Notes under the pieces: model-generated
What the model saw: the letters and a program-made list of their open reading frames with translations, nothing else
Database searches by the model: none
What the model was told of the DNA's origin: nothing
In this document: positions 48,252 to 63,900 of the stretch, one piece after another
How positions within the stretch are numbered: position 1 is the stretch's first letter
Layout: each line of letters opens with the position of its first letter
Origin: Acanthamoeba lenticulata
Taxonomy: Eukaryota > Discosea > Longamoebia > Acanthamoebidae
DNA: 64,000 nucleotides
Assembly: GCA_002179805.1 (NCBI GenBank)
Contig: NAVB01000875.1
Location: 1-64,000 of the forward strand
Direction: 5' to 3'
Program-made: the position numbers and the translations under genes

Positions 48252-50970
48252 TCAGCGAGGCAGCCGCCCGCTGGCCATGGTCTCCATTTCGTACTCGCCC
48301 TCGTTGTCCTTGACCGTCGCCGCCTCTTGAACGATCGGGTCGTGGTGCTGTTGGGGTTGTTGCTGTTGCTGCTGAAGCTGCAGCTGTTGCTCTTGTGGCG
48401 AGGCGAGTGGGTTGTGCTGGTCGTCAGAGGCGAGGTGCATGCTGCATTCGCTCTCGTCCTCGTCGCCGTCGGCGTCCACTTGGAGCTCGTCGGGCTGGTC
48501 CTCCTGCTCCTCGCCTTCGTCGCCGGGCTTGCTGGTACCGGTCGCCTTTCGTCGCTTGAGGCCGTCGACGTCGAGCAGATCGTCCTCGAGCTCGTCGTCA
48601 TCGTCTTCCGACGACGAGTTACCGTCACGCTCGGCGCTGCCGCACTCGGAGAGCTCGGAGCCGTCGCCCTGCGGCTTGAAGATCCGCAGCATCTCGAGCG
48701 TCTGGAGGGCGTCGATGGGGATGTCCTCCTCGTCACAATCTGACGTCTTGCGGTGGCGCATGACCGGCGACAGGCGGTCGTAGGAAGTGATGCGGATCTT
48801 GACCGGACGCAGACACTCCTCGCGCTCCTTGTGCAGGCGCGTGAGCTTGTCCCGGTCCTCTTCCGACATCCCATCCCCGTCGGCCTTGTGCAGGTTGAGC
48901 ATGTTGATGATCTTGTCAATCTTGCGCAAGTAGCGATACGGCCACTTGCGGCGCGTGCATTCCTTGAAGCGCTTGCAGAGCATGGACTCAGAGATGCCCA
49001 ACTTCTTGGCGGCCTCCTTCTGCGGCAGCGTGAGGAGGTCCGTGATGTCGATGTAGTTGCCCTCGGCCGAGGCGGCCGAGGCCGAGTCCTTGGCGCTCGC
49101 GTCGTCGGCACCGCCGTCCGCCGCGCCGCCGGCCCCGCCATCGTTACTCCGCTTCAGCTTCTTGTCCTTGCCGTTGGGGCTCTTCTTCTGGGCGCAGCCG
49201 CCAGCCGCGGCTCCGTTGGGCGAGCCCATGTCGGGTCCCGCCTCGCCTTCTCGGCCATTGAAGGCGCCGGCGCCCTCCTCCTCACCAGGTTCGCGCTTCC
49301 GCTTGGCTGGGCGGGACTGGACGTGGAAGGGCGTGGACTTGGCGTTGGTGATGGTGCGCTTGAGGCCCTGAGCTGAGTACTCCTCGAGAACGAACTCGAG
49401 GCAGAAGGACTGGTGTCGATGCTTGGAGGAGACCTCCATGATCTTGAGCTTGTTGAAGATGGCGCGCCCGAGCTTGTCGACGGTCACCTGACGGATGCCC
49501 TGCAAAATCTCCTGCTTGCCGTGGATCGTGGTGGTTACCTCCTTGCCCGAGGCGTGGTAGAGCAGCTTGACGCTCACGATCAGCGTCCCGGTCTCGCTCT
49601 TGGGCAGCTGGTTGAGCGCCACAGTGATGACCGGTCCGGGCATGAGGTATCGGTTGGCCACGGCGATCTCGGCCGGTTGCGACGTGATGGACATCAGTCG
49701 CTCGGTCGGCGGCAGCGGCGGCGGGAGTGCCACCATCGGCTTGGGCGCTTGTTCCTTTATCACCGGCCTGCACGAAGAGCACAAGTGTTGGAAATTAGTA
49801 AGGTTGTGATTATTACATTTCTTGTTATTACTGCCTGTTGTTGCAAACAGGTCAGGAATGAGACAACGTACTCGGCGTTGTCCACCAGAGAGGGCATCAA
49901 GGCAGACAGCACTGTTGTCGGGGAGGCACGCAGACAAGCAGTGGCAAGCCGTGAGTGATGGACATGTGACGTGACTGAGGCGAGGGAGAAGCTCGGAGAG
50001 GTTTCATGAAGTAGATGAAAGAAGTGAGAAGGGGCTTTTATCGCGTACCGATCTTCTTGCTTTCAAGGATGGTCCTGAGCTCTTGGGCTACTCGCTTGGA
50101 TTGCTGCTCGCTGGTGAGCAGCGGAAGTTCGTTAATGAGGTCCTGATTGTGCGGATTGGCCGACAGTTGAGGACTGAGGGTCGCCGGATGATGGCCGGTT
50201 TTGAACTGGAGCTTGAGCTGGTCGAGCAATTGGGTCTCGCGAGCCAGCAAATGTTCGAATTCGGCCAATTCCTTGGGCAAACCAGAAGGCATGGCCGGCA
50301 TTTCCGGCTCATTCGTCTCGATGTAGGCACGCTGAGAGCCGGCCTGCTGTATCCGCTTGGAAATGATCAGTGGTTCTCCGTCATTCGAAGCCCCAGAAGC
50401 GAAAGGGCCCTGCTGGAAGTGTGTAGCAGAAAATGGGAGACTGCCCGAAGTTCGCTTGGGCACGATGTTGACTTTCATCACTGGCGACGCTGGGGAAGCG
50501 GCCAAATGGTGAGTCGGCGTCGAAGAAGAGGCCTGTTGACCCATCACCGGTGAAGGCGGTTGTTGAACATGACCAGAACGCGGGTGCAAAGCAGATGAAA
50601 GCGACTGCGCTGGCAGTGTCGGCTGAGTGGGAGGCAGTGTCGATACTGGTAGGGACTGAAGAACAGGGTTCGGATTAGAAGGTAATTTTTGGGTCACCGC
50701 CTGATCGCGCGGGGCCCATAGTGACACACCTCCTCCTCCTGAACCCAGTGCCGCTGAGATAGTTGCGGGAGACCGAGGGGAAGCAGAGGGAGCGAGTGAA
50801 GCAGTTGGGGCCGGACTGCCATTCGCGCTGGTTGCGCCAGTCGCATTTAAAGCCGACGTGGCTGAGGGCGAAGTGGAAATGGCGGGAGAGGGATTGGGGG
50901 CGTAGAAAGAGTTGAGCAGAGCAGGGAATCCGCGCGCACCCAGAGGCGGCGATTGGATTGTCGTCGTCAT
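48252..50970 (-). CDS. RWP-RK domain transcription factor with an additional beta-rich domain
   Basis: Nuclear DNA-binding protein of about 825 residues in three exons: 50970 to about 50050 (ATG 50970, MTTTIQSPPLGARGFPAL), a small exon near 49873-49912 (VLSALMPSLVDNAE) and about 49769-48252; phases agree. Order: Ser/Pro/Ala-rich N-terminus; helical EFEHLLARETQLLDQLKLQF; a region of about 110 residues that looks beta-rich (VITVALNQLPKSETGTLIV, VSVKLLYHASGKEVTTT, GRAIFNKLKIMEVSSKHRH, SFCLEFVLEEYSAQG, STPFHVQSRP); a basic PAKRKREPG nuclear signal; then the RWP-RK helix block (LTLPQKEAAKKLGISESMLC, KRFKECTRRKWPYRYLRKI). The C-terminus is acidic and Gln-rich (runs of Q). RWP-RK factors in plants control nitrogen response and gametes; the amoebal target is unknown. 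Stop 48252-48254. Confidence 0.85.
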
Positions 50971-59487: not shown

Positions 59488-60704
59488 TTACCACTTCTGC
59501 TGAGTCATGAGCTGAGCGAAGCGGACATCCTCCTCGGTCACCTCCTTGCGGCCGACGAAGTGAGAGCTCCTGCTCGACGCCTGGATAAGGGAGACGAGGA
59601 AGTCCTCGGTGGTGGCCTGCATGACAGCGTAGCTCTCGGCGGAAAGCTCAATGCCGTCCCACCTGTTGACGACGTCAACCAGCCTCTTGAAGGCGGCAAC
59701 GTTGAGGCAGTTGGTCTCCTCCTCAGCCTCCTCGGCGCCCATGTCGATCTCCTCATCTTCCTCGTCGGAGAACTCCTCTTCGGCGTCTTCCTCCTCCTCC
59801 TCCATGCCGTCCTCCTCCATGGCCTCGCCATCGACGGACTGCTCGCAGGTCTCGGCAGCAGACTCCTCAGTAGGACCCTTCCAGTAGAGGGGGCGACCCA
59901 TAATGTTGAGGACTGCGAAGAGAGCAACTAAGCGAGAGATCACACCAGTACTAAGATGAACAAGGATGCCGTACCGTTCAAAACGTCGCTGACGACGACC
60001 TGAGCAGACTCCCTGTACTCGGCGTGAACAACCGACCTCTCAAGAATGTAGCGCAGGTACTGCTCCATAAGGGTGCGGACAACCTCTGCAATTGATTCTC
60101 GATTAGCTTATTGAGCACAGCTCGCGGCTGGTTCAAAAGACGTCGTACCAACAGCACCGGGGTGCATCTGGATCTGACCATCAGAGGCGACCTTCCTGAT
60201 GCCATCGTCAATCGAGGCACGGAGGTTATTGATCTCAGTAGTAAGGCCATCGTAGAGCTGAGCCACCTCCTGCTCGGCGTTGGAGATCATCTCGGCATAC
60301 TTGGAGATGGTGGAGGTGACGCGCTTCTCCTGCTGACCCAGGTGGGAAAGGGCAGAGTCGGTCTCCATGCCCAAAGCCTTGGCAAGCTCGGCAGCCTCCT
60401 TGGCCTCGACGTCGAGGGCAAAGGGAGCGTCCACTTCAAGCGAGAGCTCGTCCTCGGGGTAAATCTCCTCGCCCTCCTCATCGAGATCCTCGTCCTCCTC
60501 ATCTTCATCTTCCTCATCTTCATACTCGGCGTCTTCCTCCTCCTCTTCCTCCTCCTCGGCCTCCTCAACGTTCTCGACCTGCTCTTCGGGCTTGGTAGCG
60601 GGAGCAAGGGTCTCGGTCGGCTTCAGGGAGATCTCTGCAGCGAGCTGCGGGATGTTCTCCTGGGGCTTGATGTTCTCAATGTCGAAATGCGAAACGGCGG
60701 CCAT
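59488..60704 (-). CDS. Double histone-fold protein: H4-like domain then H3-like domain, with acidic segments
   Basis: Exons 60149-60704, 59975-60085 and 59488-59912 join in phase to 363 residues. Residues 42-80 are almost pure Glu/Asp. Residues 115-165 form a probable long helix. Residues 165-235 match histone H4: IDDGIRKVAS (H4 PAIRRLARR), VVRTLMEQYLRYILERSVVH (H4 helix 2, VLKVFLENVIRD), HAEY, then VVVSDVLNVLNIMGRPLY (H4 TVTAMDVVYALKRQGRTLY), keeping GRxLY. Residues 237-289 are an acidic linker. Residues 297-360 match histone H3: FKRLVDVV (H3 FQRLVREI), SYAVMQATTEDFLVSL (H3 SSAVMALQEACEAYLVGL), RKEVTEEDVRFAQLM (H3 RVTIMPKDIQLARRI). Basic histone tails and H3 alphaN are absent. Likely nuclear; a pseudo-H3/H4 dimer, chaperone-like factor or TAF/CENP-type protein are alternatives. 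Stop 59488-59490. Confidence 0.8.
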
Positions 60705-60976: not shown

Positions 60977-63900
60977 CTACTTCTTACGGAAGCCCTTCTT
61001 GGCGGATTTCTGCATGACCTGACCCTCGTAAAGGCTATTGATCATCGCCTCCAGAGTCTCTGGGGTGTATTTTATAAACTTGCCGGCGTTCGCGGTGAAG
61101 GTGCTCGCGTCATGTCTATTTGGCGCACCGAGTCAGTGCACTGACTCACTTAAGTGGTGCAAAGGCGCAATGGTGGCCGTACGCTGCAAGAAACTTCTTG
61201 TAGGGGCCCAGCACTAGCGCTCGGATATCGCTTCGCAACTGCTCGCACAGCTCCTCGTCGTGAATGGAGAACCTATGTAAAGAGTAGAGGTGCCACGTTA
61301 CACACGAGTACGATTTTGAGTTTGGTGGGGAGCTCTGCCACACCTCTTTTGTGACGCGATGACCTCCTCCACTTCCGCATTGAAGCCCTGATGTACAAAG
61401 GCGGAGAAGGGGCAAGTGAGAAATGCAGCACAACACGCATGGACACCTCAGCCATTCTTAACATACCGAGTACTTGGCCTTGAGCTTCTTCTTGAGCTTA
61501 GAGCTAAGCGGCTTCTTCGCATAGTCCTCGTCGTCCTCCTCCTTCAGGTTGGCCATCACATTCAACCAACTGTGTGTTGTTGCAACGGTGAGAGGTGTTA
61601 TCTTTGGGTGAACTTCGAGAAAGAACGGTGGGCGCTTTACCTCTCCTTGTAGGTGTTACGCTCGGCTGTAAGCACATCCTGGAGGTACCGCGTGAACTTG
61701 GGCTCGACATGGGCGGAAAGGTCCGAGTTGTTGACGTTGGAGGATATGTAGTATGCGTTGTTGAGGACAAACACGTTGGCCAGCGCCTGCAATTACACAG
61801 CCAGACCACGAATAAGTCAGGCTCTCAACCTCCTCGCAGAGCGCGAAGCACAGCGTGGCCACCCACCTTCTCTTTCTTCTTTGTTTTGTCGGCCTTGTCC
61901 TCAAGATTGGAGAGCAGTGCCTTCAGGATTCGCGCTGTGATGCATCAACCGTCGTGAGCACATGCAGCACAAAGGGCAAATGACGTTAACGCATGACGGC
62001 GTACTGATGAGCTCGGTGAACGGGGAGACCGTCTGCTTCTGGGAACCCGTGTTTCCAGTGGGCGGCGGCAACACGGACTCGACCACGGTCTGGTACTCGC
62101 GCAGTCGCTTCAAGTAGTGGAGAGCCTGTCGTTTACGAAGCACCTCAAACGCGATGAGTGCACGGCACTTCAGAGTCCGATAAGCAGGAGAGTCGTAGGT
62201 CGCACGTTGGACGTCAGCTCAGAGACGGTGCCGTCCGCGGGCACGCCCTTGAGGGCGTCGTGCGTAATGTCCTCCTCGAACTCTGGCGAAGAGGATGAAG
62301 ATAAGTAACTTATCCTCATGGGCAGGTTCCTAGTCTGGTTCTGAAGGTGGAGGCATGTACCAAGGAACGATCTCCGAAGTGAAGCCGAGAGTTGAGCGGC
62401 AAAGTCGTTCAGGTCTTCGTTGGCTTTGCTGCCCACCTGCGTCGTCCCCACAACACCCAAACACATCTCGCAGGCTCAGCTCTCCACATTCCTCAGCCCA
62501 GAGCAGGGCGTGAGCCGCGCGTGCCTTGAGAGCAGCCTGGAACTCGTCCAGCGTGGCCGACAGTTGCTCCCAAATGTCAAAGAGCGGAAACACGCCAAAC
62601 ACACGATCTGAAGTCTTCTGGTGCTTGATGATGCTCTCGCCTATGCGCGGAGCACGGAGCCCAACGTCAGGCGTCAGCAGAGGGAAAAGGGAGTCAAACT
62701 AACCAAGGTACGGCGCACCTGTGGTGATGAAGAGGTCGAGGCCGTTTTCGAAGATGCTCGGGTAGATTGAAGCAAAGTAGGTCGGATCGATGAAATCAGT
62801 GCCCAATTTGCGCTCATACTGCGAAGCCAACGTCAACCCTTGGGATCGAAACCGGAAAGGGCGGGGAGGTGCACCTTGAGCAAGATGAGGAAGACTTGCA
62901 GGAAATAGAGGTACTTGTGCGACCCGCGCACGTAGTCGCGCCCACTGGTCTGGGGGAGGGCCACCTGGCCCGCCGACGCCTTCCTGCAGCGTGCATAAGG
63001 ATTAATTGCCCTCCTATCTTTTGGTATACGACAAGAAGTGAGGGACGTGCATCTCGTCGAGATTGCGCGAGGGACGGCCGGCGTAGATGATCTGGTCCAG
63101 GTTGAGCGACTGCAGCGTCAGCGTGAGGAACTGCGATCGACACTCCTGTCATGCGGCGAGCAGCAAGGACAACCACCGCAAGTAAGTCTCGGCCCGCGAG
63201 CGAGGAGAGGGTCGACCAACCCGACCTTGTAGATCTTTTGATAGTTGTACTGCTTCTGATGCTGAAGTTCGAGCGTCATCTTGCGCATGTTTGTGATCAT
63301 ATCCGCCGGCCACGGTGCTGTATGCGATGCCGCGTCGTGCGGTCAGTAAGTGACCATAGCGCGAGCAGGTGCGGGTGGATGTATTAAATTATACCGTAAA
63401 CTTGCGTGCCGCGCACGATGGTCTCAACCTTGGCCTCGGGCAGGGCATCCATGAGGTCGAGCGGCCGGCTGTGCTCGCCAATGAGGAAGGACAGGGCGTC
63501 CTCCGTCTTGGCCACCGCTAAACGTTGCAGGTGTTGCTGTCCCCGTCACGTACATGCACAATTAATTGCCGAATCATGTGAGAGCACCATCACTGCAGAG
63601 CCTTTTCTCACCAGTTTGGACAACGCTGACTCCGCGCTCTTGAAGTTGACGTTGGCTTGGAGGAAGACGATGCCCTCGCCCACCTGAGGTACGCGTAGTG
63701 TACATCCAATGAGCGGTTAAAGGTGGTTAATCGTCTTCGGGACGACTCTTGAAAATGCATGGACGGGTGGATGGAGAGGGGGAAGAGCACCTCATGCATG
63801 TACTTGACGTACATGTTGATTCGGTCCTGCCGAAGGATGGGCACCAGGAGCTTTGTGGGAAGCCTGTAGGTGTTTGACGTCACACAAACACACATGAGAT

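Follow-up and report, generated by a model that had tools for sequence, protein, structure and literature searches.

A putative H4-H3-type double histone fold protein with acidic arms encoded in the genome of Acanthamoeba lenticulata

What might an amoeba do with a protein in which an H4-like and an H3-like histone fold are fused in a single chain and set among acidic stretches? This question is raised by a minus-strand gene in a stretch of 64,000 nucleotides from Acanthamoeba lenticulata (contig NAVB01000875.1, positions 1 to 64,000; hereafter the window), which starts with an ATG at 60704, ends with a stop at 59488 and encodes a product of 363 amino acids in three exons. Comparisons with family profiles recognize an H4-like fold followed by an H3-like fold in this product, and the protein is probably a conserved histone mimic, whose role is to handle proteins and not to package DNA. 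The parts of the gene and of its product are as follows:

60149..60704, minus strand: exon 1, residues 1-185 and the first base of codon 186
60086..60148, minus strand: intron 1, 63 nucleotides, GT-AG, phase 1 (61 nucleotides in the second gene copy)
59975..60085, minus strand: exon 2, 111 nucleotides
59913..59974, minus strand: intron 2, 62 nucleotides, GT-AG, phase 1 (64 nucleotides in the second gene copy)
59488..59912, minus strand: exon 3, end of the H4-like fold, acidic linker, H3-like fold and stop
60465..60581, minus strand: N-terminal acidic run, residues 42-80, net charge -30 (predicted local distance difference test, pLDDT, mostly <50 in models of relatives)
60213..60458, minus strand: helical region kept in the family, residues 83-164 (models of relatives)
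59875..60212, minus strand: H4-like histone fold, residues 165-235, crossing both introns (PDB and profile comparisons)
59713..59871, minus strand: acidic linker, residues 237-289 (residue charge count; net charge -30 over 236-289)
59500..59691, minus strand: H3-like histone fold, residues 297-360 (PDB and profile comparisons)

Relatives of the protein and family alignments

Homology searches recovered 14 proteins with the full protein, 29 with the acid-trimmed alignment A2 and 9 with the wider A7, together 31 proteins (P0001-P0031); all nine found with A7 at expectation values (E) up to 1 belong to the H4-H3 family. As the full-protein and A7 searches scored the 8000 candidates with the most words in common, the absence of relatives elsewhere is unproven. 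According to half-profile scoring, both folds are complete in one frame in 13 of the 31 proteins (P0001, P0002, P0009-P0013, P0015-P0018, P0020 and P0031); in P0023 the H3 part is accompanied by most of the H4 part, P0019 has the H4 part only, and the partial relatives further comprise nine exon-1 pieces and seven exon-3 pieces. Homology stops at the position of intron 1 in every one of the nine exon-1 pieces, which suggests that this intron is shared across the relatives. P0011 and P0020, transcriptome entries by their names, hold both folds in one frame, and the fused frame is therefore transcribed in relatives. A scan of bacterial and archaeal contigs gave nine pattern matches, none of which was confirmed as a relative.

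Named sources among the relatives are Balamuthia mandrillaris (P0012) and Stereomyxa (P0020). P0012 is annotated as 'putative transport and golgi organization protein 1'; this annotation is likely wrong, the protein being a member of the histone-fold family, and the label was probably caused by the acidic runs. A motif ENxxPxxN(V/I)P is kept near the N-terminus of the family (residues 9-20, 60680-60645, minus strand). P0020 reads KEN there, which resembles a degron of the anaphase-promoting complex/cyclosome.

Three alignments were used for the comparisons below: A4 for the N-half (14 rows, without P0023, whose H4 part is interrupted), A5 for the C-half (17 rows, without the near duplicates P0024, P0025, P0026 and P0028) and A2 for the joined, acid-trimmed sequences; P0031 was found after A4 and A5 had been built.

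Identity of the two histone folds

The single sequence gives weak matches for the histone folds, which family profiles bring out much more clearly. A phmmer search of PDB with the window protein gave H4 at E 0.0028 for the whole protein and 0.0018 for the N-half alone, and H3 at E 0.01 for the C-half alone, while the Pfam Histone model matched the whole protein in its C-half only, at 6.9e-4, under the cut-off. With A4, 103 PDB matches were obtained at E up to 10, the best being H4 (2.8e-6); 58 of the best 60 are H4 chains and the other two are the single-chain Scm3 constructs 2ly8_A and 2l5a_A. With A5, the best of 436 matches is H3 (2.5e-8), and the best 60 are all H3 chains except for one CENP-A and the chimera 2l5a_A. 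The joined alignment A2 had 250 matches at E up to 0.01; among the best 60 of these, 58 align via the H3 part, and the constructs 2l5a_A and 2ly8_A via the H4 part.

The same assignment was obtained within the organism's own genome (assembly G000, 48,480,206 bases in 1825 contigs). Of nine proteins scored, A4 ranked H4 highest (25.7 bits; next TAF6, 11.5) and A5 ranked H3 highest (32.6 bits; next H4, 11.7). Shuffled H4 reached at most 4.6 bits with the N profile (2000 shuffles, 1602 with a reported score) and shuffled H3 at most 9.9 bits with the C profile (2000 shuffles, 1484 with a reported score). In a tree of 37 folds, the N-halves group with the own H4 (support 93/75, under the tool's star) and a fork with support 82/94 leaves the C-halves together with the own H3 and a cenH3-like frame; since long branches meet there, the tree supports the H4/H3 assignment and not an origin. 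A divergent H3-like frame with an intron-like insert, possibly a centromeric H3, lies in the same assembly on contig C135 (L017, 36493-36723, minus strand).

Pfam reads the two halves differently. All 17 C-halves match Histone (best 7.9e-8), while Bromo_TP, itself a histone-fold family, is matched by 10 of the 14 N-halves (best 9.6e-5) and Histone by just two. For the N-half of the window protein, the Bromo_TP score is 13.1 bits against a cut-off of 24.6, and that model appears not to be specific, its matches in the own genome being two TAF9-like genes only. NCBIfam placed three of four proteins in the archaeal-histone superfamily, under the cut-off. A PHROGs match on one of three proteins (P0001, residues 210-294; E 0.017) was weak and was set aside. 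The initial annotation had read the two folds as H4-like and H3-like from short motifs and proposed a profile search of each half; PDB and the own genome favour that reading, and the shuffle control bears it out, whereas Pfam taken alone favours Bromo_TP for the N-half and so counts in part against it. Two histone folds in one polypeptide constitute a double histone fold (DHF), here with the H4-like fold preceding the H3-like one, and the order noticed at the outset, that of the Marseilleviridae doublets, is thereby confirmed.

Gene structure, second copy and selection

The gene model proposed in the initial annotation, a eukaryotic three-exon gene with two GT-AG introns, was recovered with exactly the limits 59488-60704 and 363 residues, and the long acidic runs were found as well, at residues 42-80 and 236-289 with a net charge of -30 each; the whole protein has a net charge of -78 and an isoelectric point of 4.05. 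Since exon 3 carries the end of the H4-like fold and the H3-like fold in one frame, their junction is independent of the intron calls; the remaining H4-like fold depends on these calls and is backed by the relatives with continuous frames.

An intact second copy of 364 amino acids, with introns of 61 and 64 nucleotides at matching places, is located on contig C767, where the surrounding 7.5 kb align at 97.3%. Over 361 codons, 15 of the 19 nucleotide differences between the copies fall at third positions, and the non-synonymous and synonymous divergences (dN and dS) are 0.0059 and 0.064, respectively, which is the pattern expected under purifying selection. The TAF6-, TAF9- and SPT3-like genes are likewise present twice, in near-identical form and on different contigs, as would be seen if the assembly were partly phased or duplicated, so the C767 copy may be a haplotype copy.

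Predicted structure and surface of the folds

Structure models were made of the relatives P0001 and P0010, with predicted template modelling scores (pTM) of 0.48 and 0.50. Both contain two histone folds, as the initial annotation had anticipated, and both align across the two folds to single-chain histone dimers; the H4-like and H3-like folds of one chain are thus predicted to pair in a histone handshake, and the pseudo H3/H4 dimer put forward earlier fits these models. The helical region consists of a short helix followed by a single long helix in P0001 and by two in P0010, and continues into alpha-1 of the H4-like fold.

Alignment with the own H4 and H3 places the helical segment where H4 has its tail, and the acidic linker where H3 has its tail and alpha-N. 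At the DNA-contact positions, as defined by nucleosome structures, basic residues are mostly lost and several are acidic, with exceptions; the features typical of canonical H3 and H4 (basic tails, the alpha-N of H3 and basic residues at the DNA contacts) were not found as such. In the H4-like alpha-2, charges are reversed (K59 to E, E63 to R and D68 to R in all 14 members, R67 to an acidic residue in 13 of them), and such reversals could prevent pairing with ordinary H3. The residues R116, D123 and F/Y113 of H3 and the GRPLY strand of H4 are retained, which leaves room for a possible H3-H3-like or ASF1-like contact.

Proposed function and alternative explanations

We tentatively prefer, at a little short of even confidence, the reading of the protein as a histone-mimic chaperone, decoy or assembly adaptor. 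A spliced and conserved gene of Acanthamoeba-like amoebae would yield an H4-H3-type DHF; since the folds of one chain are predicted to pair, it would form a built-in mimic of the H3-H4 dimer. It would not be expected to wrap DNA, because most basic DNA contacts are lost and the tails and H3 alpha-N are replaced. At a presumably nuclear site, it would engage histones or histone-handling proteins through its acidic arms and a core shaped like H3-H4, and the role would be that of a chaperone, a decoy or an assembly adaptor. A bolder and somewhat unlikely version is that a fused H4-H3 pair was converted in centramoebids to a charge-inverted 'anti-histone', namely a chaperone of H3-H4 shape with an acidic DNA face, in which histones are held by the acidic arms. 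If true, natural selection would have preserved a fusion of H4 and H3 in a eukaryote, counter to the view of eukaryotic histones as locked into separate proteins.

Several facts weigh against the histone-mimic reading. Pfam gives no core-histone call for the N-half in 12 of the 14 members, which, judged by Pfam alone, argues against labelling it H4. Basic residues remain at H4 36 (11/14), H3 69 (15/17) and H3 117 (12/17), so weak DNA contact may still occur. At the H2B-contact positions of H4, Y72 has become H in 13 of 14 members and H75 has become Y in all 14, R92 being lost in all 14, which makes binding of H2A-H2B through the usual surface doubtful. The structure models depict P0001 and P0010 rather than the window protein, at the pTM values given above. 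Acidic arms are, moreover, common in proteins outside chromatin.

A subunit of a coactivator or kinetochore, i.e., an SPT3-like intramolecular histone pair docking in a large complex, is a rather unlikely alternative, as the same genome encodes SPT3-, TAF6- and TAF9-like proteins, and in one frame a weak CENP-T_C match, separately from this gene, and none of the five non-histone folds tested exceeded 11.5 bits with the N or the C profile, compared with 25.7 for H4 and 32.6 for H3 (TAF3, TAF8, TAF10, TAF11, TAF12 and SPT7 did not enter this comparison individually). With the N profile, TAF6 and TAF9 had 11.5 and 6.9 bits, and with the C profile 9.7 and 2.0; the first fold of the own SPT3-like protein had -1.1 and 5.8 bits, respectively. 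As to CENP-T, the window protein scored 16.6 bits with CENP-T_C against a cut-off of 28.1, the C-halves of the family match better as Pfam Histone, with H3 as the top PDB matches, and the single CENP-T_C-matching frame of the genome is outscored with that model by H4 genes. The earlier suggestion of a TAF or centromere-type factor is accordingly disfavoured by the separate genes and the far better H4 and H3 scores. Repurposing of the kind seen in Sos, where a double histone fold would mediate contacts between proteins away from chromatin, appears improbable: the folds of Sos are H2B-like then H2A-like rather than H4 then H3, Pfam matched no exchange-factor domain in the window protein, and H2B and H2A scored 2.8 and -1.8 bits with the N profile and 9.9 and -1.6 with the C profile.

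For a domesticated viral doublet, namely a Nucleocytoviricota H4-H3 gene that the host acquired and whose basic surface was lost there (an origin compatible with the functional readings), speak the domain order shared with the Melbournevirus doublet, the good structural match and the infection of Acanthamoeba by marseilleviruses, as reported in the literature. In one structure comparison, identity to the Melbournevirus chains was 14% against 8-12% to H2A-H2B chains; in the other it was 15%, no higher than for many H2A-H2B chains (12-16%). Separate H3 and H4 chains cannot align across both folds, which leaves the viral chain as the sole single chain of H4-H3 type among the matches listed. The introns and the occurrence of the family in Balamuthia and Stereomyxa speak against such an origin, and Melbournevirus is absent from the best 60 of 250 joined-profile PDB matches. 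Three IMG/VR scans with the family alignments gave pattern matches (A2, 210; A5, 5; A4, 2), none confirmed as a viral relative; this negative is weak, because none was confirmed with the own H4 (8 pattern matches) and own H3 (1) as queries either. We consider domestication quite improbable; the evidence speaks neither clearly for nor clearly against the relic of virus-host gene exchange suggested in the initial annotation. Least credible is a nucleosomal variant that replaces the H3-H4 pair and wraps DNA: fold and order agree with it, and H3 R116, D123, the aromatic residue 113 and some basic positions are kept, but DNA contacts are mostly lost or acidic, basic tails and alpha-N are lacking, and the net charge is about -70.

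Comparison with known double histone folds

Predicted folds of the relatives superpose on Melbournevirus 7n8n_A over 156 and 150 residues (root-mean-square deviation 2.6 and 2.3), and the viral doublet, like the amoeba protein, has an H4-like then an H3-like fold in one chain. The amoeba protein differs in its acidic linker of ~50 residues, its acidic and helical N-terminal parts and its introns. Viral doublets of Marseilleviridae are reported to form nucleosomes (PMC13088155), whereas loss of most basic DNA contacts, several positions being acidic, argues against nucleosome-like particles here.

Among eukaryotic proteins, Sos likewise contains an intramolecular histone pseudodimer without DNA-binding electrostatics, but of H2B-H2A type and as the N-terminal part of a Ras exchange factor (PMC13088155). 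SPT3 of SAGA is also a eukaryotic double histone fold; in this genome it has its own, separate SPT3-like gene, with the low first-fold scores given above. ABTB2 and HSIH share with the amoeba protein two fused histone folds in one chain, but are listed for animals only, and ABTB2 adds ankyrin and BTB domains; HSIH is at least 60% identical to histones, whereas the histone kinship of the amoeba protein is clear only with profiles (PMC13088155). For eukaryotes, this 2026 review of double histone folds lists Sos, ABTB2, SPT3 and animal HSIH and no amoebozoan protein, and it leaves the histone types of some HSIH proteins unstated (PMC13088155); the literature used for comparison further comprised PMC11222145, PMC10919886 and PMC9145170. 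In the literature on histone doublets, folds, fusions, Acanthamoeba and Balamuthia, the family is undescribed among the matches listed. Further double-histone-fold types may be contained in the work of Miyake et al. of 2026, cited in that review. A conserved H4-H3 fusion in a group of amoebae that includes giant-virus hosts shows that such a fusion can persist after having apparently left the nucleosome, and provides a testable histone mimic in culturable organisms.

Other features of the window

A neighbouring frame (61146-61457, minus strand) matches Pfam Exo70_C at E 3.1e-4, under the cut-off, and the frame at 60977-61132 (minus strand), with no Pfam match, reads by eye like the end of Exo70. 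An Rfam search of the window gave no match. At 48255-50003 (minus strand), a frame with an RWP-RK domain was found (E 1.5e-7).
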